Source of the DNA: Xanthomonas indica | GTDB lineage: Bacteria > Pseudomonadota > Gammaproteobacteria > Xanthomonadales > Xanthomonadaceae | Direction of reading: 5' to 3' | Length of the DNA stretch: 64,000 nt | Assembly (NCBI RefSeq): GCF_040529045.1 | Contig: NZ_CP131914.1 | Span: 2,650,501 to 2,714,500 of the forward strand | Shown here: one piece after another, positions 35,556-50,781 of the stretch | How the letters are laid out: the number at the start of each line of letters is the position of its first letter | Position numbering within the stretch: the stretch's first letter is position 1 | Notes under the pieces: model-generated | What the model was told of the DNA's origin: nothing | Seen by the model: the letters and a program-made list of their open reading frames with translations, nothing else | Databases searched by the model: none | Program-made: the position numbers and the translations under genes

Positions 35556-36248
35556 TTGCGCGCCCAATGGAACATCCTTTGCGATTTTGACGGTACCGTG
35601 TCCCTGCAGGACGTGACCGACAGCCTGCTCGAGCACCTCGGGCGCCCCGGTTGGCAGGCGCTGGAGGACGACTGGGTCGCCGGTCGGATCGGCGCCCGCG
35701 AATGCATGAGCAAGCAGGTCGCGCTGCTCGACGGCGACGTCGATGCGCTGCACCGGGTGCTGGATGCGGTGCGGATCGACCCGGCCTTCGTGCGCTTCGT
35801 CGCGCTGGCCGAGCGCCTGGGCATCCCGCTGAGCATCGTCAGCGACGGCCTGGACTACGGTATCGCCCGGATCCTCGCCCGCCACGGCCTGCACCATCTG
35901 CCCATCATCGCCAACCGCCTGCTGCGCACCGACGCCGGCGAATGGCGCATGGCCTCGCCGCATGCGCGGCCGGACTGCCCCAGCGGCACCTGCAAGTGCG
36001 CGGTCATGGCGCAGCAGCCGCCCGAGCGCGCCACCTTGCTGATCGGCGACGGCCGCTCCGATTTCTGCCTGGCCGGCAAGGCCGACCTGGTGTTCGCCAA
36101 GGACGGGCTGCTGCGCCATTGCCGCGCCAACGGGATCGCCCACTGCGCGATCACCGGTTTCGACGACGCCATCGCCCTGTTGCCCGACCTGGCCGTGCCG
36201 GCCACGGCCGCCGTGTCCTTCCCGCTTCCTGTCACCCAACGAGCCTGA
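35556..36248 (+). CDS. HAD-IB phosphatase (MtnX/SerB-like)
   Basis: A 230-residue HAD hydrolase. Motif I is CDFDGTVS with Asp10 (nucleophile) and Asp12; motif II sits in LSIVSDGLD; the late acidic motif is TLLIGDGRSDFCLAGKADLVFAK. This matches the MtnX-like/phosphoserine-phosphatase branch. No ATG fits; the TTG at 35556-35558 is taken because GGAGAG precedes it and the nucleophile motif then lies at the normal distance. It ends 5 bp before the class III aminotransferase gene and is probably its operon partner. Substrate presumably a small phosphomonoester in the same pathway. Confidence 0.85.
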   Translation: MRAQWNILCDFDGTVSLQDVTDSLLEHLGRPGWQALEDDWVAGRIGARECMSKQVALLDGDVDALHRVLDAVRIDPAFVRFVALAERLGIPLSIVSDGLDYGIARILARHGLHHLPIIANRLLRTDAGEWRMASPHARPDCPSGTCKCAVMAQQPPERATLLIGDGRSDFCLAGKADLVFAKDGLLRHCRANGIAHCAITGFDDAIALLPDLAVPATAAVSFPLPVTQRA

Positions 36249-36253
36249 TCCCG

Positions 36254-37726
36254 ATGAACCGGAATGTTTCGCTTTCCTCGCTCGCACCGCTGCATGGCGA
36301 TGCCGCGCCCGATCCGGAGGCGCTGCTGCGCACCGGTGCCGACCACCAGCGCGCGCTGAGCGATGCGCAGATGCTGGCCGACGAGTCCCAGTACTGCTCC
36401 TACGGCGACACCGTGCACTACAGCGAGCCGCCGCGCATCTTCGGCCGTTGCGACGGCAGCTACCTGTACGACACCGAAGAGGTGCCGTACCTGGACCTGC
36501 AGATGTGGTACTCGGCGGTCAACTTCGGCTACGCCAATCCGCGCCTGAACCAGGCGCTGACCCGCCAGATCGAGACCCTGCCGCAGGTCGCCAGCCAGTA
36601 CCTGCACCCGACCAAGATCGAGCTGGCCAAGACCATCGCGGTCGACGCCGAGCGCAAGTGGGGCCGCAAGGGCCGCGTGCACTTCAACGTCGGCGGCGCG
36701 CAGTCGGTGGAAGACTCGCTGAAGCTGGTGCGCAACGCCAGCGCCGGCAAGAGCCTGGTGTTCGCCTTCGAAGGCGGCTACCACGGCCGGACCCTCGGCG
36801 CCTCGGCGATCACTTCGTCGTACCGCTACCGCCGCCGCTTCGGCCATTTCGACCGCGCCCAGTTCATCGAATTCCCGTACCACTTCCGTGGCCCCAAGGG
36901 CATGTCCAAGGAAGAGTACGGCGAGCAGTGCGTGGCCAAGTTCGAGCGCCTGTTCGAGACCGAGTACAACGGCGTGTGGGATCCCAAGGCTGGGCAGTGC
37001 GAGTACGCGGCGTTCTACGTCGAGCCGATCCAGGGCACCGGCGGCTACGTGATCCCGCCGCCGAACTTCTTCACCGGCCTGAAGCGGGTGCTGGACAAGT
37101 ACGGCATCCTGCTGGTGGTCGACGAGATCCAGATGGGCTTCTTCCGCACCGGCAAGCTGTGGGCGATCGAGCATTTCGGCGTGACCCCGGACGTGCTGGT
37201 GTTCGGCAAGGCGCTGACCAACGGCCTCAATCCGCTGGCCGGCATCTGGGCGCGCGAGGAGCTGATCAACCCGACCGTGTTCCCGCCGGGTTCGACCCAC
37301 TCCACCTTCGCCTCCAACCCGCTGGGCACCGCGGTCGGCCTGGAGACCATGCGCATGCTGGCCGAGACCGACTACGAGTCCATGGTCATGGCCAAGGGCG
37401 CGCACTTCCTGGACGGTCTGCGCGACCTGCAGAAGCGTCACCCGGAAATCGGCGACGTCGACGGCCTGGGCCTGGCCCTGCGTGCGGAAATCTGCCAGGC
37501 GGACGGCTTCACGCCGAACCGCAAGCTGCTCGACACCATGGTCGACATGGGCCTGGAAGGCGAACTGCGCCACAACGGCAAGCGCATCGGCCTGATCCTG
37601 GACGTGGGCGGCTACTACAAGAACGTCATCACGCTGGCGCCGTCGCTGCACATCAGCCACGACGAGATCGACCTGGGCCTGTCCTTGCTGGACCAGTTGC
37701 TGACCCGCGCCAAGCAGGTCGCATGA
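36254..37726 (+). CDS. PLP-dependent class III aminotransferase
   Basis: A 490-residue fold-type I enzyme of the class III group (ornithine/diaminobutyrate/acetylornithine-like). Visible are the early substrate segment YLDLQMWYSAVNFGYANPRL, NVGGAQSVEDSLK at the phosphate site, EGGYHGRTLGAS, the cofactor-binding VVDEIQMGFFRTG (Asp290), and the Schiff-base lysine Lys319 in VLVFGKALTNG. It is about 60-80 residues longer than ordinary acetylornithine transaminases at its N-terminus. It probably transaminates an omega-amine or amino acid for the pathway that continues at 37792-50781. A GC hairpin (37734-37772) separates it from the convergent ketosynthase. Confidence 0.9.
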   Translation: MNRNVSLSSLAPLHGDAAPDPEALLRTGADHQRALSDAQMLADESQYCSYGDTVHYSEPPRIFGRCDGSYLYDTEEVPYLDLQMWYSAVNFGYANPRLNQALTRQIETLPQVASQYLHPTKIELAKTIAVDAERKWGRKGRVHFNVGGAQSVEDSLKLVRNASAGKSLVFAFEGGYHGRTLGASAITSSYRYRRRFGHFDRAQFIEFPYHFRGPKGMSKEEYGEQCVAKFERLFETEYNGVWDPKAGQCEYAAFYVEPIQGTGGYVIPPPNFFTGLKRVLDKYGILLVVDEIQMGFFRTGKLWAIEHFGVTPDVLVFGKALTNGLNPLAGIWAREELINPTVFPPGSTHSTFASNPLGTAVGLETMRMLAETDYESMVMAKGAHFLDGLRDLQKRHPEIGDVDGLGLALRAEICQADGFTPNRKLLDTMVDMGLEGELRHNGKRIGLILDVGGYYKNVITLAPSLHISHDEIDLGLSLLDQLLTRAKQVA

Positions 37727-37791: not shown

Positions 37792-39027
37792 TCAGCCCGC
37801 CGCGCGCAGCGCGATCACCGCATTGAGTCCGCCGAAGGCGAAGGAATTGCTCAGCACCGCCTGCACGTGTCGGGCGCGCGCCTGGTTGGGCACGTAGTCC
37901 AGATCGCATTCCGGATCGGCATCGAGGAAGTTGGCCGTGGGCGGGACCTCCTGCTCGCGCAGCGCGCCGAGCGCCGCCACCAGTTCCAGCGCGCCGGCCG
38001 CACCGAGCGCATGGCCGTGCACCGCCTTGGTCGAACTCACCGCCAGCGCCTCCGCGTGCGCGCCGAATACCTGGCGCAGCGCTTGCGTCTCGCAGCGGTC
38101 GTTGGCCTGCGTGCCGGTGCCGTGGGCGTTGATGTAGTCGATCTGCTCCGGGGCCAGGCCGGCGTCCTGCAAGGCCAGGCGCATCGCCGTGGCGGCGCCG
38201 TCGATGCTGGGCGCGACGATGTCGCCGGCATCGGAGCTCATGCCGAATCCCGCCAGTTCCGCCAGCGGCAACGCGCCGCGGGCGGCGGCGTGCTCGGCGC
38301 TTTCCAGCACGAACATCCCGGCGCCTTCACCCAGCACCAGGCCGCTGCGCTGCGCGCAGAACGGCCGGCAGGTGTCGTCGCTGACCACGCGCATCGCTTC
38401 CCAGGCGCGGATCAGCGGCAGGCTCAGGCAGGCTTCGCTGCCGCCGGCGATGGCCACGTCGGCCAGGCCGTGACGGAGCATCAGCACGGCCTGGGCGAAC
38501 GCGTGGTTGGCCGAGGCGCAGGCGCTGGACACGGCGAAGGCCGGGCCGCGCAGGCCGAAGGCGATGCTGATCTGGCTGGCCGGGGCGTTGGCCATGCTGC
38601 GCACGATGGTCAGCGGATGCAGGCGTTCGGCCTGGTCGCGGTACAGCCGGCGCGATTGCTCGTCGCGGCTGAGTTCGGCGCCGACGCCGGTGCCGACCAC
38701 CACCGCGCAGCGCGTGCCGAGCGCGGCATCCACGGCCAGGCCGGATTGGGCGATCGCCTCGCGGGCGGCGACCAACGCCATCTGGGTCATGCGATCGAGC
38801 TGGCCCGGGGCGATGCCGCCGGTCTGCGTGGCGTCGGGCGCGAACCCGGGCAGGGTCGCGGCCAGGCGCATCTTCAGGGTGCTGAGCGGATCGGGCGAGG
38901 GCAGGGCGGCGATGCCGCTGCGGCCCTCGCGCATCGCGCTCCACAGCGCCGCGGCGCCGAGGCCGAGCGCGCTGACCGCGCCCATGCCGGTGATGACGAC
39001 GCGCCGCGCGTGCGGAGAGGCGCCCAT
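37792..39027 (-). CDS. Stand-alone beta-ketoacyl-ACP synthase (FabF-like)
   Basis: A 411-residue thiolase-fold ketosynthase. All three catalytic positions are present: Cys170 in AVSSACASANH, His302 in INAHGTGTQAND, and His339 in KAVHGHALGAAG. The C-terminal SNSFAFGGLNAVIAL is the usual FabF-type ending. It is followed upstream by a dedicated acyl carrier protein, and no other fatty acid synthase genes are near, so it most likely does a special chain-extension step rather than housekeeping synthesis. It lies 6 bp after the acp stop and is surely co-transcribed with it. Confidence 0.93.
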   Translation of the reverse strand: MGASPHARRVVITGMGAVSALGLGAAALWSAMREGRSGIAALPSPDPLSTLKMRLAATLPGFAPDATQTGGIAPGQLDRMTQMALVAAREAIAQSGLAVDAALGTRCAVVVGTGVGAELSRDEQSRRLYRDQAERLHPLTIVRSMANAPASQISIAFGLRGPAFAVSSACASANHAFAQAVLMLRHGLADVAIAGGSEACLSLPLIRAWEAMRVVSDDTCRPFCAQRSGLVLGEGAGMFVLESAEHAAARGALPLAELAGFGMSSDAGDIVAPSIDGAATAMRLALQDAGLAPEQIDYINAHGTGTQANDRCETQALRQVFGAHAEALAVSSTKAVHGHALGAAGALELVAALGALREQEVPPTANFLDADPECDLDYVPNQARARHVQAVLSNSFAFGGLNAVIALRAAG

Positions 39028-39033
39028 GGCGCG

Positions 39034-39306
39034 TCAGTGCGCCGGTTGCGCCGCGCTGGCCGCCTTGGCTGCCAGCGCGTCCTCGACCGCCTGCACCAGC
39101 TTGCCGAGCGAACCGTCGTCCAGGTTCGGGTCGCGCTGCGGGAAGGTGATGTCGAAGTGTTCCTCGATGTCGAACAGGATTTCGATGGCCTCGAGCGAAT
39201 CCACGCCCAGGTCCTGCAGCTTGGCATCGGGGGTCAGGCGTGCCGGGTCGATCTCGCCATGCTTGGCGACGATGCTGTGGATTTGCGACTCGATGGACGG
39301 GGTCAT
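39034..39306 (-). CDS. Acyl carrier protein
   Basis: A 90-residue acidic carrier protein. The phosphopantetheine attachment site is Ser37 in LGVDSLEAIEILFDIEEHF. The C-terminal end has an extra Ala-rich tail (LAAKAASAAQPAH). It is the first gene of the acp-ketosynthase pair, and faces the GNAT gene across a 112-bp divergent promoter region (39307-39418). It presumably carries the acyl chain made or used by the neighbouring ketosynthase and the GNAT/FemAB-like transferase. Confidence 0.93.
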   Translation of the reverse strand: MTPSIESQIHSIVAKHGEIDPARLTPDAKLQDLGVDSLEAIEILFDIEEHFDITFPQRDPNLDDGSLGKLVQAVEDALAAKAASAAQPAH

Positions 39307-39418: not shown

Positions 39419-40486
39419 ATGCCTTTCGTCAACCAACTCGAGCCGCAGGCCTTGCAGCGGCAGTTCCTGCAGCACCCGCCGGCCGGTTTCCTGATCCAGC
39501 CCCTGGAGCACGGGGTGCCGGCCTTCGAGGCCGATTTCGACCTGCTCACCACCGCCGAGCCGGCGCTGCGCGCGAAGGTGGCGCGGCTGCCGCTGCAGCG
39601 GCTGTGGCAGCGCCTGCTGCGGCCGCGCACCAGCTTCGTCGGCAGCACCGTCAGCGAATACGCCTGGCTGCCGCGCGCGGCCGACCCGGCGCAGTTGCCG
39701 CGGCAATGGCGCGCGCAACTGGGGCGGAAACGCGCGCTGCTGATCGTCAAGGACGTGCCGCAGCGCTCGCCGCTGCTGGACGCCGCCGACAACGCCTGGG
39801 CGCAGGCTTTCCTGGATGCCTGCGAGCGCAACGGCTACGTGCTGTTGCGCGGACAGGCGCTGGCCTGGGTGCCGATCGACTTCGCCTCCACCGACGAGTA
39901 CCTGGCGCGACTTTCGCGCGGGCGCCGGCGCAACATCCGCCGCAAGCTGCGCTCGCGCGCCGACCTGGAGATCGAGGTGCTGCCGACCGGCCCGGCCTTC
40001 GCCGACCCGGCGCTGCGCGCGCACTGCTATGCGCTGTACCAGGAGGTGTATGCGCAGAGCGAGATCCATTTCGACCTGCTCACCGCGCCGTTCTTCGACG
40101 CGCTGCTGACTGACGCCGCGTCGGGCGGGCAGGTGTTCGTGTACCGGCACCAGGGCCGCATCATCGGCTGGAACCTGTGCTACGTGCACGAAGGCCGGCT
40201 GCTGGACAAGTACATCGGCCTGCATTACCCGGACGCGCGCGAGCACAACCTGTACGCGCTGAGCTGGATCGAGAACCTCGACTACGCCTGCCGCCACGGC
40301 CTGACCGCCTATGTCGCCGGCTGGACCGATCCGGAAGTGAAGGCCCAGCTCGGCGCCAGCTTCACCTACACCTGGCATGCGGTATACCTGCGCAATCCGC
40401 TGCTGCGCGCCGTGCTGCGCCGATTGCGGCCGCTGTTCGAATCCGACGACGTCGGGCCGGCGGCCGATGCCGCCGAGGAGGACTGA
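39419..40486 (+). CDS. GNAT/FemAB-like acyltransferase (Acetyltransf_6 type)
   Basis: A 355-residue protein. The C-terminal half carries the GNAT-like core (QVFVYRHQGRIIGWNLCYVHEG; KYIGLHYPDAREHNLYAL), and the middle has SRGRRRNIRRKLRSRADLEIEVLP, a typical segment of the double-GNAT FemAB/BioF2-like proteins. Such enzymes move acyl or aminoacyl groups to amines. Located divergently from the acp-ketosynthase pair and one base from the ureohydrolase-like gene, it is the best candidate for joining the acyl chain on ACP to an amine (inference). The ATG at 39419 gives a full-length domain. Confidence 0.85.
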   Translation: MPFVNQLEPQALQRQFLQHPPAGFLIQPLEHGVPAFEADFDLLTTAEPALRAKVARLPLQRLWQRLLRPRTSFVGSTVSEYAWLPRAADPAQLPRQWRAQLGRKRALLIVKDVPQRSPLLDAADNAWAQAFLDACERNGYVLLRGQALAWVPIDFASTDEYLARLSRGRRRNIRRKLRSRADLEIEVLPTGPAFADPALRAHCYALYQEVYAQSEIHFDLLTAPFFDALLTDAASGGQVFVYRHQGRIIGWNLCYVHEGRLLDKYIGLHYPDAREHNLYALSWIENLDYACRHGLTAYVAGWTDPEVKAQLGASFTYTWHAVYLRNPLLRAVLRRLRPLFESDDVGPAADAAEED

Positions 40487-40487
40487 G

Positions 40488-41366
40488 ATGCGCACCCCGG
40501 TCCTGCTCGATCTCGATGATTCGCTGGGCGCGGTGCCTGACGCCTTGCGCTTGCCGCTGCGCGACTGGTGCGATGGCCTGCGCTTCGCCTGCTCGATGGC
40601 GCGGTTGCGCCGCTTCGGCGCGGCGCTGGAACAGGCGCTGCCGGCGCGGTACGGCACCGTGCTGCTGGGCAGCGGCGATTTCCATCACCTGAGCCTGCCG
40701 CTGATCGTGCGCCTGGCGCGGCGCGCGCAGGCGCCGTTGCGGGTGGTGGTGTTCGACAATCATCCGGACAACATGCGCTTCCCGTTCGGGGTGCACTGCG
40801 GCTCGTGGGTGCGGCGCATCGCCGCGCTGCCGCAGGTGGCGCAGGTGGAAGTGGCCGGCATCACCTCCGGCGACGTCGGCCCCGGCCATGCCTGGGAGAA
40901 CCATCTGCTGCCGCTTTACCGGGGCAAGCTGCGCTACTGGTGCAGCGGCGTGGATGTGGGCTGGGCGCGACGGCTGGGCCTGGGCCAGGCGGTGCGCGGC
41001 TTCGCCAGCGTGAGCGAACTGAGCGACGCCTTCGTCGAACACCTGCGGCGCACGCCGATGCCGACCTATCTGTCGCTGGACAAGGACGTGCTGGATCCAC
41101 AGGACGTGCGCACCAACTGGGACCAGGGCCAACTGCGCGTGCCGCAGCTGCTGCAGGCGATCGACGCGCTGCGCGGACAGGTGTGCGGCAGCGACATCAC
41201 CGGCGAAGTCTCGCTCGCCCATTACCCGCAGTGGTGGAAGCGCAAGCTGGCGGCGCTGGACGCGCAGCCGGAACCATCGCCGGCGGATCTGTCGGCGTGG
41301 CAGGCGCAGCAGCATGCGTTGAACCTGCGGTTGCTGGCGGCGTTGGATGCGGCCAGCGTCGGCTAG
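40488..41366 (+). CDS. Arginase/ureohydrolase-fold protein
   Basis: A 292-residue protein of the ureohydrolase fold. The metal-binding motifs are altered but recognisable: GSGDFHHL (Asp64, His66) in place of GGDHS, FDNHPDN (Asp90, His92, Asp94) in place of DAHxD, and SLDKDVLDP (Asp198, Asp200, Asp203). The di-manganese ligands thus seem present, so it may be an active C-N hydrolase, but the substrate loop is unlike arginase or agmatinase. Its start is 2 bp after the GNAT stop. In this locus it could release or modify a guanidino- or amide-type intermediate (inference). Confidence 0.85.
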   Translation: MRTPVLLDLDDSLGAVPDALRLPLRDWCDGLRFACSMARLRRFGAALEQALPARYGTVLLGSGDFHHLSLPLIVRLARRAQAPLRVVVFDNHPDNMRFPFGVHCGSWVRRIAALPQVAQVEVAGITSGDVGPGHAWENHLLPLYRGKLRYWCSGVDVGWARRLGLGQAVRGFASVSELSDAFVEHLRRTPMPTYLSLDKDVLDPQDVRTNWDQGQLRVPQLLQAIDALRGQVCGSDITGEVSLAHYPQWWKRKLAALDAQPEPSPADLSAWQAQQHALNLRLLAALDAASVG

Positions 41367-41516: not shown

Positions 41517-42770
41517 TCAAGCGCTCGGCGCAGCGGCATGCACCAGATCGACATGCAGCGGCGCCGGTCCGACTGTGGCGGCGCAGGCCGCCTGCAGCGT
41601 GGCCACGATGGTCTCGAAGCGCGCCTCGTCCAGCCAGGGGCTGTTGCTGATGCTCAGGCAGCGTGCGGCGAAGTCGCTGGCGTTGGGCATCGGCGTGCGC
41701 TCGACGATGCCGTCCAGGTAGTCGTAGTCGGGCAGGGCATGCACGAACGGCACCGCCACGCCGAGCCCGCGCGGCCACAGCGCGGCCAGCACCGATTCGC
41801 GCGCGGTCGCATCGGGCAGCAGCACCATCAGGATCGGCCAGCTGCCCTGGGCGCCGGGGGTATCGGCGATCACGGTCAGGCCGGGGATGCTGGCCAGGCG
41901 GGCGCTGCGGCGCCGACCCTGCTCGCGGATCTGCGCCAGGAATGCCGGCCAGCGCGCGCTGGCGCGCACGCCGACGCCTTCGCGCCAGGCGCCGACCGCG
42001 TGTTGGGCGATGGCCGTGCCGAAGCGGTCGCCGGCCGCGCCCACGCGGTCGCCGCGACGCAGTGCGCGGCGTACCGGTGCGCCGTACGCCCAGCGCAGTG
42101 GCTGCGGCCGGTACAGCGCCGCGTAGCCGAGCAGTTCCAGGCTGCGGCGCAGTTCCCAGCGCCAGTCGCGCTGGCCCAGGCGTGCGGCGGTGTCGGCCAG
42201 GCTGCGCTGCAGCGGCGCATGCCGCGACATCAGCAACCCGCCTTCGTAGAGGGTCAGGCCCTTGCCGGCGGCCAGGCTGCAGAAGCCGATGTCGCCGCCC
42301 AGGCCGGCCGGGCGGCCGTCGGGGTGCACGCCGCCCAGCGCCTGCGCCGCGTCCTCGATCAGCAACGCGCCGCAGCCTTCGGCGGCGCGGCGCAGCGGCG
42401 CCAGGTCGGTCAGGCGCCCGCCGAGGTGGGTGGCGATGATCGCCAGGGTGTCGCTGCCGCAGCGTTGTGCCAGTTGCACCGGGTCCAGCTCCAGCGAGCC
42501 GGGCAGCAGATCGCACAGCACCAGCTGCAGGCCGCAGTGCGCCACCGCCAACGCTACCAGCGGGCAGGTGTAGGCCGACACCAGCACCTGTCGGCGCCGG
42601 CTGGCCGCGGTCAGGGTGCGCAGGGCCACGATCAGCGCGGCGGTGCCGGAGCAGGTCAGCAGCGCCTGCGGCAGGCCGAGCGCAGTGGCCAGCCGCGTGC
42701 GCGGGCGGCCTGGCCACAGGTCCCGCCACTGCAGCGGCAGGCCCGCGGTCGGTGGCACCTCAATGCGCAT
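41517..42770 (-). CDS. DegT/DnrJ/EryC1-family PLP aminotransferase
   Basis: A 417-residue fold-type I enzyme. The N-terminal TCSGTAALIVAL holds the phosphate-binding turn, IEDAAQALGG gives the cofactor Asp140 and Gln143, and Lys170 in GFCSLAAGKGLTLYEGG takes the Schiff-base position. Compared with sugar aminotransferases such as ArnB, the substrate-binding C-terminus looks different, and the N-terminus is truncated of the usual IPL...P start. It probably aminates a keto compound or acts on an amino-acid-like substrate. It is the last gene of the minus-strand set and overlaps the EamA gene upstream by 11 bp. Confidence 0.87.
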   Translation of the reverse strand: MRIEVPPTAGLPLQWRDLWPGRPRTRLATALGLPQALLTCSGTAALIVALRTLTAASRRRQVLVSAYTCPLVALAVAHCGLQLVLCDLLPGSLELDPVQLAQRCGSDTLAIIATHLGGRLTDLAPLRRAAEGCGALLIEDAAQALGGVHPDGRPAGLGGDIGFCSLAAGKGLTLYEGGLLMSRHAPLQRSLADTAARLGQRDWRWELRRSLELLGYAALYRPQPLRWAYGAPVRRALRRGDRVGAAGDRFGTAIAQHAVGAWREGVGVRASARWPAFLAQIREQGRRRSARLASIPGLTVIADTPGAQGSWPILMVLLPDATARESVLAALWPRGLGVAVPFVHALPDYDYLDGIVERTPMPNASDFAARCLSISNSPWLDEARFETIVATLQAACAATVGPAPLHVDLVHAAAPSA

Positions 42771-43158
42771 CGGCGGGATCCGCGCGTTCGCCGATCGCCA
42801 GGCAGACGATGCCGCCGACGATCAGCGCCGCGCCCAGCGCCTGCAACAGGCCGATGTGCTCGTTGAACCACCAGGCCGACAGCAGCATCACGCTGACCAC
42901 CTCCAGGTGCGAGGCGGCGAAGGCCGGGCCGATCGGTGCGTGCTCGAGCAGCTTCATCCAGGTGAAGAACGCACCGACGTAGCCCAGCAGCGCGGCGTAC
43001 AGCCACGGGCTGCCGAGCAGGCGCAGCACCCAGGCCAGTTCGGCCTGTGGCGGAAACGCGTGGGTGCCCGCCAGCTTGAAGCCGATCTGGGCCAGCGTGT
43101 CGAAGCTCAGCAGCAGGGCGAAGCCCACCGCGTAGCGATGCAGCGGCGGCCGGCTCAT
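42760..43158 (-). CDS. EamA/SMR-type four-helix transporter subunit 1
   Basis: A 132-residue membrane protein with four helices: AVGFALLLSFDTLAQIGFKL, LLGSPWLYAALLGYVGAFF, FAASHLEVVSVMLLSAWWF and LLQALGAALIVGGIVCLAIG. It is the size of one EamA repeat or of SMR proteins such as ArnE/ArnF, which act as pairs. The next gene encodes a similar protein, so the two probably form a heterodimeric flippase or exporter for a pathway product. The start overlaps the partner gene by 4 bp. Confidence 0.82.
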   Translation of the reverse strand: MSRPPLHRYAVGFALLLSFDTLAQIGFKLAGTHAFPPQAELAWVLRLLGSPWLYAALLGYVGAFFTWMKLLEHAPIGPAFAASHLEVVSVMLLSAWWFNEHIGLLQALGAALIVGGIVCLAIGERADPADAH

Positions 43159-43517
43159 GAGCCCAGCCCCACCACGGCCACGCCGGCGCTGACCAGGCAG
43201 ATGCCGGCCACCTGCATGCGCCCGAGGCGTTCGCCGAACAGCCAGCGCCCGGCCAGCATGATCGCCACGATGTTGATCGAGCCCAGCAGCACGCCGCGGC
43301 CCAGCGGCACCAGCGACAGGAACGCGGTCCAGGCAAGGAATTCGAACACGTAGCAGGCCACGCCGAACCACAGCTGCGGCTGCCGCGCCATGCGCTGCCA
43401 GCGCGCCATGCCGGTACCCTGCGGGTGGCTGGCGACGTACTTGAAGGCCAACTGGCCGGCGGTGTCGAGCGCCACCGTCGCCAGCCAGATCGCCACCACC
43501 GAGCCGGTCATCGCCAT
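43155..43517 (-). CDS. EamA/SMR-type four-helix transporter subunit 2
   Basis: A 120-residue membrane protein with four helices (SVVAIWLATVALDTAGQLAF; LWFGVACYVFEFLAWTAFL; LLGSINIVAIMLAGRWLF; MQVAGICLVSAGVAVVGLG). It resembles its neighbour in the LDTAGQLAFKY / FDTLAQIGFKL region, so the two are paralogues that probably pair. The start ATG shares a base with the stop of the hydrolase gene (TGATG) and its end overlaps subunit 1. Candidate substrate: the amine or lipid-linked product of the surrounding enzymes. Confidence 0.82.
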   Translation of the reverse strand: MAMTGSVVAIWLATVALDTAGQLAFKYVASHPQGTGMARWQRMARQPQLWFGVACYVFEFLAWTAFLSLVPLGRGVLLGSINIVAIMLAGRWLFGERLGRMQVAGICLVSAGVAVVGLGS

Positions 43518-44344
43518 CAGGCGGCGGCCTGCTGCGGGGTGGTGAGCGCCGCGAAGAACTGCGCCAGGCGCGCGCCGAGCACGCGCCGTTCGCGGTCCAG
43601 GGTGATCATGTGGTAGCTGTCGTGCAGCAGCAGCAGTTCGGTCGGCCCGGAGACGTTGGCGATCACCAGCCGCGCGTTGCGCAGGTCGGCGATGTCGTCC
43701 TCGGCCGCGTGCGCGACCAGGCACGGCGCGACGACCTTGGGCAGGTTGCGGCGCACGTCGCGCGAGAGCAGGTACATCTCGGCCAGGGCGTGCCAGGGGT
43801 TGCCGGGCAGGCCGGCGGCGCTGCTGTCGCCGCCGAGCATGGCGCTGCTGACCTGGGCGCGGATGCGCTCGTCGCGCAGGCCGTATGGCGGCTCTTCCAG
43901 GAACATGCGGCGCTTGCCGATGCCCAGGCGCTTGAACCACGGCAGCAGGAACGCCAGGCGCGCGCGCTTGGGGATGTTCCAGCCGTCGTAGCGGAAGGTG
44001 GCGCCGAGCACGCCGACGCCGTCCACCCACTGCGGCCGCTCCTGGGCCAGGCGCAACGCCAGCAGCGCGCCCATCGACAGCCCGGCCACGAACAGCCGGT
44101 CGACCTGCGGACGCATCCGCGCGGCGGCGGCCTCGACGCTGGCGTACCAATCGCGCCAGCTGGTGGCCAGCAGGTCGTCCTCGTCGCCGCAGTGGCCGGC
44201 CAGCTGCACGCCGTGGACGCTGAAGCCTTCGCGGTTCAGGCTCTTGCCGAGCAGGCGCATCTCGCTGGGCGTGCCGGTCAGGCCATGGATCAGCAGCACG
44301 CCGTTGCGGCCGCCTTCGAAGTGGAACTCGGCAGATTCGATCAT
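43517..44344 (-). CDS. Alpha/beta-hydrolase, carboxylesterase/lipase-like
   Basis: A 275-residue hydrolase. The oxyanion segment is GVLLIHGLTGTPSEM, the nucleophile elbow GLSMGALLAL carries the Ser, the acid is probably the Asp in AHAAEDDIADL, and the His is in LLLHDSYHMITLD. This matches the carboxylesterase/monoacylglycerol-lipase (EstD/YvaK-like) group, cytoplasmic and without a signal peptide. In this position it could cleave an ester or thioester, for example to release a product from ACP, but that is speculation. It is separated by 91 bp from the exporter genes upstream and overlaps the EamA gene downstream by one base. Confidence 0.88.
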   Translation of the reverse strand: MIESAEFHFEGGRNGVLLIHGLTGTPSEMRLLGKSLNREGFSVHGVQLAGHCGDEDDLLATSWRDWYASVEAAAARMRPQVDRLFVAGLSMGALLALRLAQERPQWVDGVGVLGATFRYDGWNIPKRARLAFLLPWFKRLGIGKRRMFLEEPPYGLRDERIRAQVSSAMLGGDSSAAGLPGNPWHALAEMYLLSRDVRRNLPKVVAPCLVAHAAEDDIADLRNARLVIANVSGPTELLLLHDSYHMITLDRERRVLGARLAQFFAALTTPQQAAA

Positions 44345-44435: not shown

Positions 44436-45338
44436 TCAGTGCTTGGCCGCGGCCGGATTGCGGAAGCGTACCAGCACGCGCTGGCCAATGCGCAGGGTCG
44501 AGGGCTGGGTGAAGGCCAGGACGCAGGCCACGCTGCGGTCGTTGCCGGCGGGCGTGGCGTCGTCGTGCAACTGGGTGGGGCCGTAGGCCGGCGCCAGCCA
44601 GCGCACCACCGCCTGGCCGAGCACGGTCTGGCGGCCGTCGTCGCTGATGACCTCGGCGGCCATGCCCGGAGTGACGCTGCCGGCATAGCTTTCGTTCAAT
44701 TCGGCGCGGACCAGGCGCGGCGCGTCCGGCAGCAGGGTCAGCAGCGGCGCGTTGGCCTCGCTGCGTGCGCCGACCGCGGCCGACAGCTGCAGCACGCGCC
44801 CGGCGGCCGGCGCCTGCAGCCGGTACTGCGCGCGCTGCAGCTCGGCCGCGCGCACCTGCGCGTCGGCCAGGGCCGCATCGCTGCGTGCGGTGTCCAGTGC
44901 GTCGACCAGGCTCTGCACCGCGTCGCTGGCGTCGTCGGCGCTCTGGCCGTCGCTGGCGCCCAGGCGCGCGGCCTCGGCCAGCCGCCGCTGCTTCTGCTGG
45001 GCGCTTTGCAGGCGCTGCTGCAGCTGTTTCAAGTGGGTGGCCGCGGCCTGCGCGCGGGTGCGGGCGATGTCCAGGTCGACCGCGGCGGCGCGGTCGTCGC
45101 CGGCGACCAGCAAGGCCCCTTTCTGCACCGCGTCGCCCTCGTGCACCGGCACCTCGCGCAGGGTCGCGGCGACCGGCAGGCCGAGCTTGAGCACGCCGCC
45201 CTCCACGTCGATGCGGCCGCGCGCCACTGCCAGATAGGCGGCGGGGGCGGCGGCCAGCGCCGGGGCCGGCGTGCGGTCCGATGGCGCGCATGCGGCCAGC
45301 AGCAGGCTCAGCAGGGGCGCGGCGGCGAACGCTTTCAT
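44436..45338 (-). CDS. HlyD-like membrane-fusion lipoprotein
   Basis: A 300-residue periplasmic adaptor. The lipoprotein signal KAFAAAPLLSLLLAACAPS has lipobox LLAAC. A beta-barrel/lipoyl half (LREVPVHEGDAVQKGALLVAGDD) leads into a coiled-coil hairpin (about 85-165, LDIARTRAQAAATHLKQLQQRLQSAQQK), then a second lipoyl half (YRLQAPAAGRVLQLSAAVGARSEANAPLLTL). It bridges the ABC permease and the outer-membrane factor encoded upstream, to which it is joined by 4-bp overlaps. Confidence 0.9.
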   Translation of the reverse strand: MKAFAAAPLLSLLLAACAPSDRTPAPALAAAPAAYLAVARGRIDVEGGVLKLGLPVAATLREVPVHEGDAVQKGALLVAGDDRAAAVDLDIARTRAQAAATHLKQLQQRLQSAQQKQRRLAEAARLGASDGQSADDASDAVQSLVDALDTARSDAALADAQVRAAELQRAQYRLQAPAAGRVLQLSAAVGARSEANAPLLTLLPDAPRLVRAELNESYAGSVTPGMAAEVISDDGRQTVLGQAVVRWLAPAYGPTQLHDDATPAGNDRSVACVLAFTQPSTLRIGQRVLVRFRNPAAAKH

Positions 45339-46099
45339 GGTGCGGGATTCCGTGAGGGCAGGGGCGAGGGCGGTGCGTTCACGCGGCGGTCGTCGAGGAT
45401 GCGGCCGTCTTCCATCGACAGCACGCGGTCGGCGTGGCGGATCAGGCGCGGGTCGTGGCTCACGCACAGCACCATGGTGTTGTGGCGGCGCGCGATGCGG
45501 TGCAGCAGGTCGATCACGATCTGGCCGTTGCCGGCATCCAGCGCGCTGGTCGGTTCGTCGGCGAACAGCAGCGCCGGATGCTTGGCTAGCGCGCGGGCGA
45601 TCGCCACGCGCTGCTTCTCGCCGCCGGACAGCTCGGCCGGACGCAGGTGCTGGCGGTGGGCGATGCCGACCTCGGCCAGCGCTTCTTCGGCGCGGCTGCG
45701 CACCTCGGCCGGGGCCAGGCCCATGTACTGCAGCGGCAGCCGCACCTGGTCCAGCGCGCACAGCGCCGGGAACAGGTTGAAGCCCTGGAAGATGAAGCCG
45801 GTGTGGCGCAGGCGGAACTGCTCCAGCGCGGTGGCGCCGAGCGTGCCCAGTTCCTCGCCCAGCGCCAGCACCTGGCCGGCGTCGGCGCGCTGCAGGCCGC
45901 TGAGGATCGACAGCAGGGTGCTCTTGCCGCAGCCGGACGGGCCGGAGATCAGGGTCAGCTCGCCCGGCCACACCTGCAGCGCCACGTCGCGCAGTACCGG
46001 CGTGCGCACGCTGCCGGAGACGAAGCTCTTGCACAGGCCGCTGCCGCTGAGCGTGGCGGCGGCCGGGTGCAGCGCGGCGGGGGCGACGATGCGGCTCAT
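45335..46099 (-). CDS. ABC transporter ATPase (MacB/LolD type)
   Basis: A 254-residue ATPase. Walker A is SGPSGCGKSTLLSIL, the Q-loop is FIFQGFNLF, the signature is LSGGEKQRVAIARAL, Walker B is ALLFADEPTSALD, and the H-loop is CVSHDPRL. It belongs to the LolD/MacB-type subfamily that drives mechanotransmission exporters rather than import. It overlaps the permease (4 bp upstream) and the membrane-fusion protein (4 bp downstream). Confidence 0.94.
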   Translation of the reverse strand: MSRIVAPAALHPAAATLSGSGLCKSFVSGSVRTPVLRDVALQVWPGELTLISGPSGCGKSTLLSILSGLQRADAGQVLALGEELGTLGATALEQFRLRHTGFIFQGFNLFPALCALDQVRLPLQYMGLAPAEVRSRAEEALAEVGIAHRQHLRPAELSGGEKQRVAIARALAKHPALLFADEPTSALDAGNGQIVIDLLHRIARRHNTMVLCVSHDPRLIRHADRVLSMEDGRILDDRRVNAPPSPLPSRNPAP

Positions 46100-47229
46100 C
46101 GCAGCAGCAACGCCGGATCGGCGCGGCGCAGCCCGCGCAGCGCGGCCAGGGCCGAGACCACGGTCAGCAGCATCACCGCGCACACGCACAGGCCCCAGCC
46201 GCTGGCGTTGAACGCCACCGGCACGTCGTGCGCACGGGCCAGCGCGACCAGCGCCGCGCCCAGCGCGCTGGCGCCGATCAGGCCCAGCGCGCCGACCCAG
46301 GCGGCCTGTTCCAGCACCACCCAGCGCAGGTTGCGCATGCTCACGCCCAGCGCGTTGAGCGTGGCGTATTCGCGCGCGGCGCCGAGCACGGTGCCGAGCA
46401 GGGTCTGGCTGGTGATGGCCACGCCGACCAGCAGCACGATGCCGCCGAGGAACAGCACGCCGGAGCCGGCGCCGGTGTCGAACATCCAGAACAGGATGCT
46501 GCGCCGGGCGAAATCGTCGGCGCTCCAGGCTTCCACGCGCGGCCGCGTGACAGCGTTGTCGATCGCCTGCGCCACCGCCTGCGGGTCGGCGCCGGGGCGC
46601 AGCCTGGCCACCATGTAGGTCGGCCAGTCCGGGTGCGCGGTGTCGCTGTTGAGCGCGCGCGCGGTGTCCAGCGAGGCCAGTACGTTGACCCCGCCCAGCG
46701 CGCGCAGGCCGCGGCCCACCCCGATCACCCGCACGCGGTGGCCGTTGATGCGCGCGCTGCTGCCGACGCCGACGCCGAGCTTGTCCAGTTCCGCGCGGTC
46801 CACCACCACGGTGTCCGGCTCGCGCAGCGCCGCGCGCAGCGCCGGGCTGAGCAGGCGGGAGAACATCAGGCCACCATCGCGGGTGTCGATGCCGGAGATG
46901 TAGACCGACACCGCGCCGGTGTCGCCGGGGCCGCGCCAGTCGCCGTCGAACCAGATGAACGGCTCGATCTGCGCCACCCGCGGGTCCAGGTACAGCGGCG
47001 CGGCCGCGTCCGGATCGATGGCGCGGCCCTGGTCCACGCTCTGCGTGCCGGGATAGCCCAGCCACAGGTCGGCGTCGGAGCCGGAGACATAGACGCTGGC
47101 GCTGCCGAAGATGCCCAGCACCAGCGCGGTCTGCAGCAGCAGCAACAGGCTGGCGAAGCCCACCGATACCACCACCGGCAGGAAACGGCGCCACTCGTAG
47201 CGCAGGGTCTGGCGGGCCAGCGCGACCAT
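46096..47229 (-). CDS. ABC exporter permease, FtsX/MacB-like
   Basis: A 377-residue permease. There is one N-terminal helix (VVSVGFASLLLLLQTALVLGIF), a large periplasmic domain (about 45-260), and three C-terminal helices (LFLGGIVLLVGVAITSQTLL; AAWVGALGLIGASALGAALV; GLCVCAVMLLTVVSALAAL). The cytoplasmic ending LRGLRRADPALLLR is the normal FtsX/MacB tail. It has no fused ATPase. With the ATPase, membrane-fusion protein and outer-membrane factor it makes a tripartite exporter spanning both membranes. Its start shares a base with the outer-membrane-factor stop. Confidence 0.9.
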   Translation of the reverse strand: MVALARQTLRYEWRRFLPVVVSVGFASLLLLLQTALVLGIFGSASVYVSGSDADLWLGYPGTQSVDQGRAIDPDAAAPLYLDPRVAQIEPFIWFDGDWRGPGDTGAVSVYISGIDTRDGGLMFSRLLSPALRAALREPDTVVVDRAELDKLGVGVGSSARINGHRVRVIGVGRGLRALGGVNVLASLDTARALNSDTAHPDWPTYMVARLRPGADPQAVAQAIDNAVTRPRVEAWSADDFARRSILFWMFDTGAGSGVLFLGGIVLLVGVAITSQTLLGTVLGAAREYATLNALGVSMRNLRWVVLEQAAWVGALGLIGASALGAALVALARAHDVPVAFNASGWGLCVCAVMLLTVVSALAALRGLRRADPALLLR

Positions 47230-48659
47230 CAGGGCTGCGCGCCTCTGCGGTCGCTGCCGTCGCCGGCGCCGGGGATCGGCGCGGTGGCGCTGCCCAGCGC
47301 CGTGTGCAGGGCGACGTAGGCCAGATCGCGCTGGCGCTGCGCTTCCAGCAGTTCCAGTGCCGCCTGGTCGCGTGCGGCCTGCTGCGTGGCCACGTCCAGG
47401 TCGCTGCCCAGGCCCAGCCGCCGGCGCTGTTGCGCCACCTCGGCGACCTGCTGCTGCGCCTGCAGCACCTGCTGCTGGGTCTCGGTGTTGCGCCGCTGCT
47501 GCTCCAGCGTGGTCAGCGCAGTCTCGACCTCGTTGACCGCGTCCAGCACGGTCTGCCGGTAGGCCAGGGTGGCCGCTTCCAGCAGGTCGCCGCGCGCCTT
47601 GGCCCTGGCCTGGCGGATGCCCCAGTCGAACAGCGGGATGTCGATCACCGGGCCGAACGAGGCGATGCCGTGGGTGGCGGTGCGGCGGTGGCTCAGCAGG
47701 CTGGTCGACCAGCGGATCGCGCCGCCCAGGCCGATGCTGCCGTAGCGGTCGGCGCGGGCGATGCCCAGCGCGCCGGCGGCGCTGATCACCTCGGCCTCGT
47801 GCGCCGCGATGTCCGGGCGTCGCCGCAGCAGGTCGGCCGGCACGCTGTCGACCGCCGCAATCTGCAGTTGTCCCGGCGCGGTGGTGGCCGCGGCCGCGCT
47901 CCATGCCGGGTCGGGCGTATCGCGGCCCAGCAGCACCGCCAGGCGCCGCGCCGCGGCGGCGGCGGCATCGCGCGGCTCGTTCACCGCGCTCTGCGCCTGC
48001 AGCGCCGCGGCCTGCGCCTGCGCGGCGGTGGCCGGCGCGGCCAGATGCAGGTCGACCAGGGTCTGTTGCAGGCCAGCCTGGCGCTGGCGTGCGCTGGCGA
48101 TGTCCTGCAGCAGGCGTTCGGCCTGCTGCGCGTGGCGCAGGTCGATCCAGTTGTGTGCCACGTCGGAGATCGTCGCCGCGCGCACCTGCGCAAGGTTGGC
48201 CTGGGCGCTCTGCAGGTCGCCGCGGGCGACGCGGTTGGTGGCTTCGCCGCGGCCGAACAGCGGCAGCTCCCACTCCGAATCGACACCCACGACCAGGAAC
48301 GAGGCGCTGGCGTCCGGGTCGATCGGGTCCTCGGTGCGCGCGCGCAGCTGCGGCCGCAAGGTGGCGTCGGCGACCGCGTCCAGCCGCCGCGCCGCGCGCA
48401 GCCGTGCCAGCGCCTGGCCGACCTCGAGATCGTCCCGCAGCGCCTGCGCGACCAGCGCGTCGAGTTGCGGATCGTGGAAATCCTGCCACCAGGCGCTGCC
48501 CTGCGGACGCGGCGCGGCCGCCTGCGGCGTCGCGCTGCTCCACTGTGCGGGCAGCGACGGCTGGCGCAGGTCGGGGATGGGCTGGCTGGCGCAGCCAGCG
48601 AGCGCGAGCGCGGCGGCCAGCGCCAGCACGCCGGCCGGACAAACGCGGATCCGGCTCAT
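47229..48659 (-). CDS. RND/ABC-type outer-membrane efflux lipoprotein (OprM/NodT-like)
   Basis: A 476-residue outer-membrane factor with a lipoprotein signal (VLALAAALALAGCASQ). Two OEP repeats are visible, each with long helices: LVAQALRDDLEVGQALARLR... and VAQQRRRLGLGSDLDVATQQ. Between them RRRPDIAAHEAEVISAAGALGIARADRYG is a strong NodT-family signature. It provides the exit duct for the exporter formed with the three genes downstream. It overlaps the histidine kinase gene by 4 bp, an unusual fusion of sensor and exporter in one transcript. Confidence 0.92.
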   Translation of the reverse strand: MSRIRVCPAGVLALAAALALAGCASQPIPDLRQPSLPAQWSSATPQAAAPRPQGSAWWQDFHDPQLDALVAQALRDDLEVGQALARLRAARRLDAVADATLRPQLRARTEDPIDPDASASFLVVGVDSEWELPLFGRGEATNRVARGDLQSAQANLAQVRAATISDVAHNWIDLRHAQQAERLLQDIASARQRQAGLQQTLVDLHLAAPATAAQAQAAALQAQSAVNEPRDAAAAAARRLAVLLGRDTPDPAWSAAAATTAPGQLQIAAVDSVPADLLRRRPDIAAHEAEVISAAGALGIARADRYGSIGLGGAIRWSTSLLSHRRTATHGIASFGPVIDIPLFDWGIRQARAKARGDLLEAATLAYRQTVLDAVNEVETALTTLEQQRRNTETQQQVLQAQQQVAEVAQQRRRLGLGSDLDVATQQAARDQAALELLEAQRQRDLAYVALHTALGSATAPIPGAGDGSDRRGAQP

Positions 48660-50077
48660 GCCTGCGGCTCCGCGCCGGCCGGCAGGTCCAGCTCCGCACG
48701 CAAGCCGCCCAGCGCCGAGCGCCGGTAGCGCAGCGTGGCGTGGTGGCGGGCGGCGATGTTGGCGACGATCGCCAGGCCCAGGCCAGTGCCGCCTTCGGGC
48801 GCGTCCGGGGCACGGAAGAAGCGCTCGCCCAGGCGCGGCAGCAGGGCCTCGTCGATGCCGCTGCCGGCGTCGTCCACCGCCAGGCGCACGGCCTGCGGCT
48901 CGCGCCGCAGGCTCACCGTGACCACGCGGCCGGCGGCATGGCGGAAGGCGTTGTCCAGCAGGTTGTCGAGCAGCTCGCGCAGCGCATAGGCATCGGCGGC
49001 CACCCAGGTAGGCGTGTCGTCGTCGCCGCTGTCGTAGCCCAGGTCCACGCCGGCGTGCAGCGCGTCGGGGATGCGCTCGGCCAGGGCCTGCGGCAGCCAT
49101 TGCGCCAGGTCCAGCGGCAGCAGCGGGCGGATGCTCTCGCGCGGCGCCTGGGTGCGGGTCAGCGCCAGCAACTGGGTGGAGGTGCGGGTGGCGCGGTCGG
49201 TCAGCTGGCGGATGTGCTGCAGCGCCTGAGCGGTGTCCCCCGGGCGTTGGCTGGCCTGGGCACGCTGCACGTGCATGCTCAGCCCGGCCAGCGGCGTGCG
49301 CAGCTGGTGTGCGGCGTCGGCGAGGAAGCGCTCCTGCAGCGCCATCATGTGCTTGAGGCGGCCGAGCAGGCCGTCGATGGCCTGGGTCAGCGGCAGGATC
49401 TCCACCGGGATGTCCGGCCCGGACACCGGGCTGAGGTCGCGCTGGCTGTCGTCGAGCCGGCGCACCGCCGGCTCCAGCATGCGCAGGCCGACCCGCACGC
49501 CGTGCCAGACCAGCACCAGCAGGGAGCAGGTGAGCAGCAGTTCGGTCGGCAGCATCAGCACCAGGATCTCGCGGGCGCGGCGATGGCGGTCGTCCAGGGT
49601 CTCGGCCACCGACACGGTGAGCCAGTCGCCCGGCTCCAGCGCCGAGGGCAGCAACAGGCTGGCCACGCGCACCGGCACGCCGTTGTCCATGCGGTCGTCG
49701 TACAGCATCACCCGGCCGATCTCGGCCGGATCCGGGTGCATCGGAATCGGCTGGGTACTGCCGCTGATCACCCCGTGGCGGCGGCTGTCCAGCTTGAAGA
49801 ACACCCGGCCGTCGCTGCTGTACTCCAGCAGTTGCCGCGCCTGCAGGGTCAGCGGCATGCGCTCGCCGGGGTCGTTGACCGCGTTGGCCAGGCCCTGCGT
49901 GTCCTCCTTCAGGTCCATGTCGTGGACGTGATTGGTGTACTTGAGCATCAGCAGGTAGAACAGCGCCGACACCACCAGCATCAGCAGCACGGTCGGAATC
50001 AGCAGGAACGCCAGCAGTCGCTGGCGCAGGCTGGGATGGCGGTAGGCCGGCGCCTGCGCGGCAGTGGTCGCGCTCAC
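48656..50077 (-). CDS. Sensor histidine kinase
   Basis: A 473-residue kinase starting with GTG inside the regulator's stop (GTGA). Two helices (LLAFLLIPTVLLMLVVSALFYLL near 20-43 and ILVLMLPTELLLTCSLLVLV near 171-190) flank a periplasmic sensor domain of about 125 residues. The phospho-accepting His is His257 in DAAHQLRTPLAGL. The ATPase domain has the N-box ELLDNLLDNAFRHA and the G-box GGTGLGLAIVANI. It belongs to the TctE/QseC-like group and probably senses a substance handled by the exporter encoded next. Confidence 0.93.
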   Translation of the reverse strand: MSATTAAQAPAYRHPSLRQRLLAFLLIPTVLLMLVVSALFYLLMLKYTNHVHDMDLKEDTQGLANAVNDPGERMPLTLQARQLLEYSSDGRVFFKLDSRRHGVISGSTQPIPMHPDPAEIGRVMLYDDRMDNGVPVRVASLLLPSALEPGDWLTVSVAETLDDRHRRAREILVLMLPTELLLTCSLLVLVWHGVRVGLRMLEPAVRRLDDSQRDLSPVSGPDIPVEILPLTQAIDGLLGRLKHMMALQERFLADAAHQLRTPLAGLSMHVQRAQASQRPGDTAQALQHIRQLTDRATRTSTQLLALTRTQAPRESIRPLLPLDLAQWLPQALAERIPDALHAGVDLGYDSGDDDTPTWVAADAYALRELLDNLLDNAFRHAAGRVVTVSLRREPQAVRLAVDDAGSGIDEALLPRLGERFFRAPDAPEGGTGLGLAIVANIAARHHATLRYRRSALGGLRAELDLPAGAEPQA

Positions 50078-50781
50078 TGCGGGATCTGTGCGTGGTCGGC
50101 GGCCGGTGAGGCGGCGCGCGACTCCTCCAGCAGGTAGCCCAGGCCGCGGATGGTGCGGATGCCGACGCCGGCGCCATGCAGCTTGCGCCGCAGGCGGTGC
50201 ATGGAGATGTCCAGGCCGTTGTCGGTGATTTCGTGTTGCCAGTCGCACAGCGCCTCGGTCAACTGGCTGCGGCTGACCACGCGCCCGCTGCGCAGCAACA
50301 GGGTCTCCAGCAGCGCGAACTCGCGTGCGGTCAGGTCCAGCGGCTGGTCCTGCAGCCACACCCGGCGCCCGGCCAGGTTGATGCGCAGTTGCCCCAGCAC
50401 CAGTTCCGGCACGCCGCCGCTGCTGCTGCGGCGCAGGAGCGCGCGGGTGCGGGCGAGGAACTCGGACAGTTCGAAGGGCTTGATCAGGTAGTCGTCGGCG
50501 CCCTGGTCGAGCGCGTGGATACGGTCTTCCACCGCGTCGCGCGCGGTCACCACCAGCACCGGGATCTCGTCGCGGCGGGCGCGCAGGCGCTGCAGCACCT
50601 GCAGCCCGTCGCGGCGCGGCAGGCCCAGGTCCAGGACCAGCAATTGATAGCTTTCGCTACCGAGCGCACGTTCGGCGGCGGCGCCGTCGCTGACATGGTC
50701 CACCACGTGCCCGCACTCGGCGAGCGAGTCGCGCAAGGCAACGGCAATGGACGTATCGTCTTCGGCAACCAGGATGCGCAT
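50074..50781 (-). CDS. OmpR-family response regulator
   Basis: A 235-residue regulator. The receiver domain has the acidic pair in LVAEDDTS, phospho-acceptor Asp51 in LLVLDLGLPRRDG, and the conserved Lys in YLIKPFELSE. The C-terminal winged helix (LDLTAREFALLETLLLRSGRVVSR...ISMHRLRRKL) is of the OmpR/QseB type. It is the first gene of a ten-gene minus-strand run down to 41517 and should control it. Confidence 0.94.
   Translation of the reverse strand: MRILVAEDDTSIAVALRDSLAECGHVVDHVSDGAAAERALGSESYQLLVLDLGLPRRDGLQVLQRLRARRDEIPVLVVTARDAVEDRIHALDQGADDYLIKPFELSEFLARTRALLRRSSSGGVPELVLGQLRINLAGRRVWLQDQPLDLTAREFALLETLLLRSGRVVSRSQLTEALCDWQHEITDNGLDISMHRLRRKLHGAGVGIRTIRGLGYLLEESRAASPAADHAQIPQ

Follow-up and report, generated by a model that had tools for sequence, protein, structure and literature searches.

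Several described systems resemble parts of the sixteen-gene locus of Xanthomonas indica analysed in this study, which lies at positions 35556-50781 of the window (the whole 64,000-nt stretch of DNA that was analysed, genome coordinates 2650501-2714500 of G000:C1, the single 4.81-Mb contig of the genome). MprF has the double-GNAT fold that is also predicted for the GNAT protein of the locus; however, the flippase domain of MprF belongs to the same polypeptide, whereas the locus GNAT has only 355 aa and the candidate flippases are separate genes. Relative to MprF, the locus also adds separate small proteins, pyridoxal phosphate (PLP) enzymes, a phosphatase, a ureohydrolase, a ketosynthase (KS) and an acyl carrier protein (ACP). 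The Arn (L-Ara4N) pathway of lipid A modification shares with the locus a DegT-type aminotransferase that neighbours two small EamA proteins, yet the matches to ArnB (43.9 bits), ArnE (27.2 bits) and ArnF (28.6 bits) fall below the curated cut-offs of 631, 92 and 99 bits, on which the pathway was ruled out, and ArnA, ArnC, ArnD and ArnT were not named for any of the sixteen genes (Pfam on ten genes and NCBIfam on all, best 25 families listed). Some class III aminotransferases act on carrier-bound beta-keto acids (mycosubtilin type), and a class III enzyme beside a KS and an ACP could likewise aminate a beta-ketoacyl-ACP; the class III aminotransferase of the locus (AT3), however, is a free-standing enzyme, shows very high conservation and persists in loci without KS and ACP. 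The ureohydrolase belongs near the arginase/agmatinase/proclavaminate amidinohydrolase superfamily, with only 10-22% identity to known members among the matches listed.

Two further systems concern amine lipids and glycolipid export. Proteobacterial ceramide synthesis (spt, acpR, aasR, cerR, bcerS; sources compared: PMC11334938, PMC11324152, PMC11087976, PMC9386255) resembles the locus in using a dedicated ACP and an N-acyltransferase for an amine lipid (PMC11324152, PMC9386255). In contrast, the locus has neither serine palmitoyltransferase nor acyl-ACP synthetase, and its GNAT was ruled out as a sequence relative of bacterial ceramide synthase (bCerS, CC_1154) by comparison with a single sequence, the homologue YghO of E. 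coli BL21(DE3), which itself matches no Pfam family and with which it shares no profile similarity (hhalign probability 0.04%); PF04339 itself occurs in Caulobacter (control search). The DevBCA/HgdBC exporter of cyanobacterial heterocysts, in which HgdB and HgdC have been connected with the glycolipid layer of the heterocyst (PMC6161253), is the nearest counterpart of the locus pump: the permease resembles DevC most closely and the ATPase DevA, and the adaptor matches include DevB, but the DevA and DevC scores are below curated cut-offs (Table 1) and the pump is accessory in the locus.

The sixteen genes are one system, spread over many proteobacteria in reshuffled and extended forms. Its product is most likely an exported fatty molecule with an amine group, and the reading preferred here, at a probability of roughly 50%, is that of a modular system that would make, flip and, in this genome, export an amine-bearing lipid. 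Its parts come from known families, while the combination and its product seem undescribed; no paper on this gene set was found among the open-licence papers searched.

The gene set across genomes

All sixteen reading frames were confirmed with backing from codon usage (gene caller trained on the window), and the family scans agree with the enzyme types named by a first-pass annotation of the window, whose observation is thus confirmed and whose interpretation is partly supported. Conservation was followed in a family-level survey (149 genomes), a phylum-level survey (398 genomes), a plasmid survey and a survey of loci fetched by the ureohydrolase in named genomes. At the family level, the ureohydrolase was present in 20 of 149 genomes, and each of 20 neighbourhoods (16 reached via the ureohydrolase and four via the KS: G002, G173, G161 and G150) contained at least seven of the sixteen genes in varying order. 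Across the 398 genomes, the ureohydrolase was found in 16 (E <= 1e-15), AT3 in 25 (E <= 1e-140) and the GNAT in 24 (E <= 1e-15). All 16 genomes with the ureohydrolase carried both AT3 and the GNAT, and these two overlapped in 22 genomes, with AT3 alone in G181, G208 and G320 and the GNAT alone in G322 and G339. AT3 matches were at least 67% identical in 24 genomes and 55% identical in one. In 15 of 16 genomes, AT3 and the ureohydrolase shared a contig and were no more than about 13 kb apart; in G411 they were split over two contigs. The hypergeometric P values for pairwise co-occurrence (1.5e-22, 5.3e-23 and 8.1e-31) should be taken as a ranking and not as true probabilities, since the genomes are related. 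Plasmids also carry these genes: the hydrolase was detected in 75 records (E <= 1e-20) and AT3 in 34 (E <= 1e-100), and ten regions were read.

The ureohydrolase profile yielded at least 594 stretches in named genomes, including at least 526 confirmed relatives, from which the best 80 loci were taken; counts rest on the 64 with both 10-kb flanks (16 with shorter flanks were left out), with presence called by identity thresholds. Among the seven genes termed core here, the GNAT was present in 64 loci, the two small EamA proteins SMR1 and SMR2 in 54 each, the hydrolase in 53, AT3 in 49 and the HAD phosphatase in 46; the near-100% presence of the GNAT and the ureohydrolase follows from the loci having been fetched by the latter. 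The counts for the remaining genes were DegT in 53 loci, KS and ACP in 45 each, permease in 42, HlyD and NodT in 41 each, ATPase in 40, kinase in 21 and regulator in 18. At least five core genes were present in 54 loci, all seven in 40 and all sixteen genes in 17. KS and ACP occupied the identical 45 loci and were both absent from 19, so that this pair is not central to the system. The grouping into one system, by contrast, is borne out: the set is kept together across genera while order and strand change, and the scattering in related genomes that would have told against it was not seen. Adjacency of unrelated genes by chance has nothing in its favour but the divergent and convergent units in the window; it is vanishingly improbable and was ruled out, as the genes co-occur and are co-located in many genera although their order is reshuffled.

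Close relatives are Xanthomonas sp. NCPPB 1128 and X. sacchari R1; in the latter the hydrolase is 96.7% and AT3 99.4% identical to those of the window, which would place the genome in the X. sacchari group. The X. sacchari R1 copy (L156, NZ_CP010410.1) is found together with hemN on a record of 509 kb labelled as a plasmid, which may reflect a misassembly or a true second replicon; no permease gene is listed for it, in a collection whose gene table is incomplete.

Judged by the presence pattern across relatives, HAD-AT3-hydrolase looks like the deepest unit, followed by the SMR pair and GNAT-ureohydrolase, while KS-ACP, DegT, acyl tailoring and the pump look like add-ons. KS and ACP are not seen in Pseudomonas asuensis (L129), three genomes of genus g81 (probably Pseudomonas) and four Rhizobium/Sinorhizobium loci (two of which are plasmids of one strain), and the exporter and DegT are also missing in some of these. 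The g81 loci (L149-L151) and the alphaproteobacterial-looking L153 comprise HAD, AT3, ureohydrolase, two SMR-type genes, hydrolase, GNAT and the genes of a two-component system (NtrC-type in L149 and L153), with no KS, ACP, DegT or pump in view; Agrobacterium plasmids add TolC, permease, ATPase and HlyD to this g81-type core. All four Rhizobium/Sinorhizobium plasmid loci read have a fatty acid desaturase inside the operon and three have a CFA-type synthase; a regulator and a kinase precede these genes. The ureohydrolase of Comamonas testosteroni L088 is adjoined by a CMAS-family gene (287.9 bits), and those of L080, L086, L094, L098 and L100 by frames grouped into the same cluster; KS and ACP were not seen in these six loci. 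Frame calls among inserted genes mix true genes and wrong frames and were relied on only if confirmed by Pfam or annotation. Family f57 (L236-L239) keeps hydrolase, AT3, HAD and KS together in four of four loci and ACP in three, L239 ending at the KS. HAD, AT3 and hydrolase occur with the GNAT in L240 and L242 and beside a kinase and regulator in L241. In Bartonella sp. HY038 the set is split into two parts of a single plasmid, with a ureohydrolase below the Pfam cut-off. On a Roseomonas plasmid, HAD, hydrolase and GNAT accompany an arginase-family protein, DegT, two EamA-like proteins and a regulator of sigma-54 type. The genes belong together with their catalytic motifs kept, and the acyl-chain enzymes (KS and ACP, desaturase, CFA-type synthase) come and go.

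Three side observations concern individual relatives. On the Bartonella plasmid L162, an MBOAT gene and an unknown gene (12589-13971) adjoin AT3-FemAB-ureohydrolase. Pigmentiphaga-type loci L104, L125 and L127 have several extra kilobases between the ureohydrolase and DegT. In G322 (L247 9194-12398), a weak GNAT relative stands beside two SMR-like genes and a different enzyme of the class III aminotransferase type (25% identical), which may represent a distantly related system.

Catalytic features of the locus proteins

The KS has all its catalytic residues (Cys in ACASAN, His in NAHGTGT and His in VHGHALG), as first reported. It scores 422.4 bits against the FabF equivalog TIGR03150, below the cut-off of 493.75, and 409 bits against the broader FabF-type NF005589, above the cut-off of 387; the genome's own FabF-type paralogue is 41% identical to it. 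A tree was built from 17 locus KSs (that of the window and 16 hand-chosen of 68 extracted), 4 aminotransferase-adjacent, 3 FabF-type and 14 other sequences. The locus KSs form their own clade apart from FabF (support 99/97), and the sister KSs (support 89/87) adjoin AT3, HAD and hydrolase in another family. A housekeeping pair (primary FabF/AcpP) is ruled out by this separate clade and the score below the equivalog cut-off, as the one-pathway idea of the first-pass annotation required. Aryl polyene and xanthomonadin loci contain several KS/CLF, dehydratases and an AMP-ligase, and such a locus was ruled out because the sixteen genes include one KS and no dehydratase or ligase. Many related ACPs have lost the aspartate of their serine motif, which is unusual, and read ASL rather than DSL (DLGIASLE/D and DLGVASLE/D in 39 of 71; e.g. 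L114 8478-8750).

The KS and ACP are also weakly related to cispentacin AmcF/AmcB (NCBIfam, below cut-offs), and together with the two PLP enzymes they resemble small biosynthetic clusters. With a dedicated pump present, the product might be a secreted small natural product, such as a signal or antibiotic, assembled on the ACP and leaving the cell through the tripartite pump, rather than a membrane lipid. This alternative is considered quite unlikely: many relatives lack pump and KS-ACP, the Xanthomonas genome G085 (L034) has kept all biosynthetic genes while its pump is reduced to NodT and HlyD fragments (7385-7822), and the desaturase and CFA-type genes indicate long fatty chains.

Structures were predicted from 30 sequences per protein, taken from the window and related loci. 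The GNAT fold spans residues 1-344, and by this model the protein is a double-GNAT of the aminoacyl-tRNA-dependent transferase type (MprF/FemX), which corrects the earlier label of GNAT/FemAB-like transferase. It is possible, though doubtful, that the locus is a split MprF-like system, in which the double-GNAT would move an amino acid from aminoacyl-tRNA onto a lipid amine or head group, the EamA pair would flip the product and the ureohydrolase would trim an arginine-type residue, for envelope charge and defence against cationic peptides. However, fold alone proves no function, and the double-GNAT fold is shared by CoA-dependent enzymes (mycothiol synthase, NMT). In addition, MprF unites flippase and synthase in one protein while they are separate here, other core genes part the GNAT from the ureohydrolase in L044-L048, L149-L151, L153 and the Rhizobium and Agrobacterium loci, and the KS, ACP, HAD and two PLP enzymes would be left unexplained. 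The genome encodes a second full-length PF04339 protein (G000:C1:3041170-3042258, L166; 444.5 bits), which matches the locus GNAT by profile with a probability of 93.8.

By family profile and predicted fold, the ureohydrolase is a divergent member of the arginase superfamily, predicted to hydrolyse a guanidino or amidino group. Its metal ligands, assigned by motif and not by superposition (H66/H67, D90, H92, D94, D198 and D200), are invariant in 45 of 45 sequences. The motifs are SGDFHH, DNHPD and DKD; with looser patterns, DKD is found in 113 of 113 relatives and GSGD-x-HxL in 104 of 113, compared to 80 of 113 with strict patterns that were too narrow. Its DITGE motif appears to be one residue longer than the canonical one. 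The DegT enzyme has its GKG motif in 73 of 73 extracted relatives, and the hydrolase, whose best solved relatives are thermostable monoacylglycerol lipases, has GLSMG in 89 of 95. Catabolic roles are common among ureohydrolases, class III aminotransferases and lipases, and by eye the ureohydrolase-GNAT locus of G411 lies near frames resembling a polyamine-type ABC transporter. The hydrolase, phosphatase, aminotransferase and ureohydrolase might accordingly be imagined to degrade an imported amine lipid or guanidino compound, with the pump expelling toxic intermediates. Such a catabolic or detoxification role is very improbable, given that the KS, ACP, desaturase, CFA synthase and transferase are biosynthetic and that an export pump, and no importer, is present among the sixteen genes. 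Anti-phage defence was ruled out on the lack of any PADLOC match for the five proteins scanned (GNAT, ureohydrolase, DegT, hydrolase and phosphatase).

Layout and borders of the locus

The locus is bordered on the left by hemN and a tRNA-Leu gene (35284-35370) and on the right by a gene annotated as porin in X. sacchari R1. The tRNA-Leu was found in only 2 of 20 loci scanned (L034, L053), placing it outside the system. The genes form four units (Table 1): HAD-AT3 (+), ACP-KS (-), GNAT-ureohydrolase (+) and a ten-gene minus-strand run. The run, first described as overlapping throughout, does so at nearly every junction, with gaps of 91 bp (hydrolase/HlyD) and 26 bp (NodT/kinase). The two subunits within it first called SMR-like are indeed small membrane proteins, of the EamA/ArnE/ArnF-like type. 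The gene caller placed the start of the HAD phosphatase at 35598; the TTG at 35556 retains the DFDGT motif and matches the annotated X. sacchari R1 copy. A single promoter-like site was identified in 35300-51400, at 50917-50888 (-) upstream of the response regulator, compared to 0.5 such sites in shuffled versions of the region.

Table 1. Genes of the locus, with window positions, place in the set and family evidence.
Gene product	Position	Strand	Place in set	Evidence
MtnX-like HAD-IB phosphatase	35556..36248	+	core	PF12710, PF06888; TIGR01489 76 bits (cut-off 81.55); same annotation in X. sacchari R1
Class III PLP aminotransferase (AT3), tight subfamily	36254..37726	+	core	PF00202 257 bits
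FabF-like ketosynthase (KS)	37792..39027	-	accessory	PF00109/PF02801
Acyl carrier protein (ACP)	39034..39306	-	accessory, travels with KS	PF00550; serine present, LGVDSLEA
Double-GNAT transferase (predicted fold)	39419..40486	+	core	PF04339/PF13480
Divergent ureohydrolase (arginase fold, predicted)	40488..41366	+	core	
DegT/DnrJ-type PLP aminotransferase	41517..42770	-	accessory	PF01041 125.9 bits
Small EamA (ArnF/ArnE-like) membrane protein 1 (SMR1)	42760..43158	-	core	PF00892; weak ArnF/ArnE matches below cut-off
Small EamA (ArnE/ArnF-like) membrane protein 2 (SMR2)	43155..43517	-	core	PF00892; weak ArnE/ArnF matches below cut-off
Alpha/beta hydrolase, monoacylglycerol lipase / Est30 type	43517..44344	-	core	PF12146
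HlyD-type exporter adaptor	44436..45338	-	accessory	EmrA/RND_mfp/DevB-type matches, 11 of 11 below cut-off
ABC ATPase, DevA/LolD/MacB type	45335..46099	-	accessory	TIGR02982 218.5 bits (cut-off 295.8)
DevC/FtsX-type permease	46096..47229	-	accessory	TIGR01185 65.3 bits (cut-off 290.35)
NodT-type outer-membrane factor	47229..48629	-	accessory	TIGR01845 213.8 bits, above cut-off 210.05
Sensor histidine kinase, QseC/PmrB-like	48656..50077	-		best NCBIfam match QseC 152.9 bits (cut-off 475)
OmpR-type response regulator, TctD/PmrA-like	50074..50781	-		TctD 228.6, PmrA 224.6 bits (cut-offs 337, 330)

A short REP-like interspersed element starts (41421-41460 and 41383-41406) in the gap where the ureohydrolase and DegT genes converge. 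Of the 55 places in the genome matched by a 480-base query taken there, on both strands, all except its own and a few longer ones cover about the first 25-45 bases. Elsewhere in the window, the two 2-kb steps of 12001-16000 have a lower G+C (0.66 and 0.60) than the others (0.67-0.76), with a tRNA-Cys (13527-13600) adjoining, and may be an island; positions 2463-6949 hold four plus-strand frames whose starts look glycosyltransferase-like by eye.

A candidate aminolipid pathway

The lipid reading draws on the desaturase and CFA/CMAS-type genes, the KS-ACP pair and the monoacylglycerol-lipase-like hydrolase. In the proposed pathway, the HAD phosphatase and AT3 would make an amine building block, which may be a serinol-type amino alcohol if the starting compound is a keto-phosphate, or a beta-amino acyl chain if KS-ACP take part; each of these chemistries is known from other enzymes. 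The double-GNAT transferase would join an acyl or aminoacyl group to this amine, the ureohydrolase would remove an amidino-type group or otherwise trim the head, and the DegT enzyme, where present, would add a second amine. The KS and ACP would set the fatty chain, and the lipase-like hydrolase would release or edit an ester or thioester. It is proposed that the two ArnE/ArnF-like proteins then move the lipid across the inner membrane and that the DevBCA-type ABC/HlyD/NodT pump delivers it to the outer membrane or across it, with the two-component system setting expression by envelope state. The two-component genes and the ArnEF-like pair suggest a possible role in envelope charge, and the N-acylated amine product and its sensing that were first envisaged are plausible.

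Several observations weigh against this pathway. By its predicted fold, the GNAT is no less likely to draw on an aminoacyl-tRNA than on an acyl donor, and neither an acyl-ACP synthetase nor a glycosyltransferase is found among the sixteen genes. GNAT matches are weak (E 1e-34 to 2e-51) in eight of the 24 GNAT genomes, and the class III enzyme of the Roseomonas plasmid shares only 24% identity with AT3. G181 (L243) has AT3, the SMR pair, hydrolase, HAD, pump and regulator, with no GNAT, ureohydrolase, DegT or KS in view, and G002 (L049) has HAD, AT3, hydrolase, the SMR pair, KS, ACP, exporter and regulator, with no GNAT, ureohydrolase or DegT in view; the GNAT and ureohydrolase may therefore serve a separable step. 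L081 and L105 contain only hydrolase, GNAT and ureohydrolase within their flanks, and G208 has the 55% AT3 with no other locus genes in view.

Taken more broadly, the locus could represent an undescribed class of proteobacterial aminolipid systems, a proposal put forward tentatively. This class would be defined by the phosphatase/AT3 pair, a free-standing MprF-like transferase coupled to a ureohydrolase, ArnEF-like flipping, swappable acyl tailoring (KS-ACP, desaturase, CFA-type synthase) and optional export, and would extend over gamma-, beta- and alphaproteobacteria, partly on plasmids. The modular swaps offer a direct way to tell which gene builds which part, and the double-GNAT/ureohydrolase pair poses a clear biochemical question. 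If the proposal is true, a few per cent of Pseudomonadota (ureohydrolase in 16 and AT3 in 25 of 398 genomes) would make an envelope or secreted amine lipid of undescribed structure, through a pathway that no adenylation, condensation or PKS module betrays.

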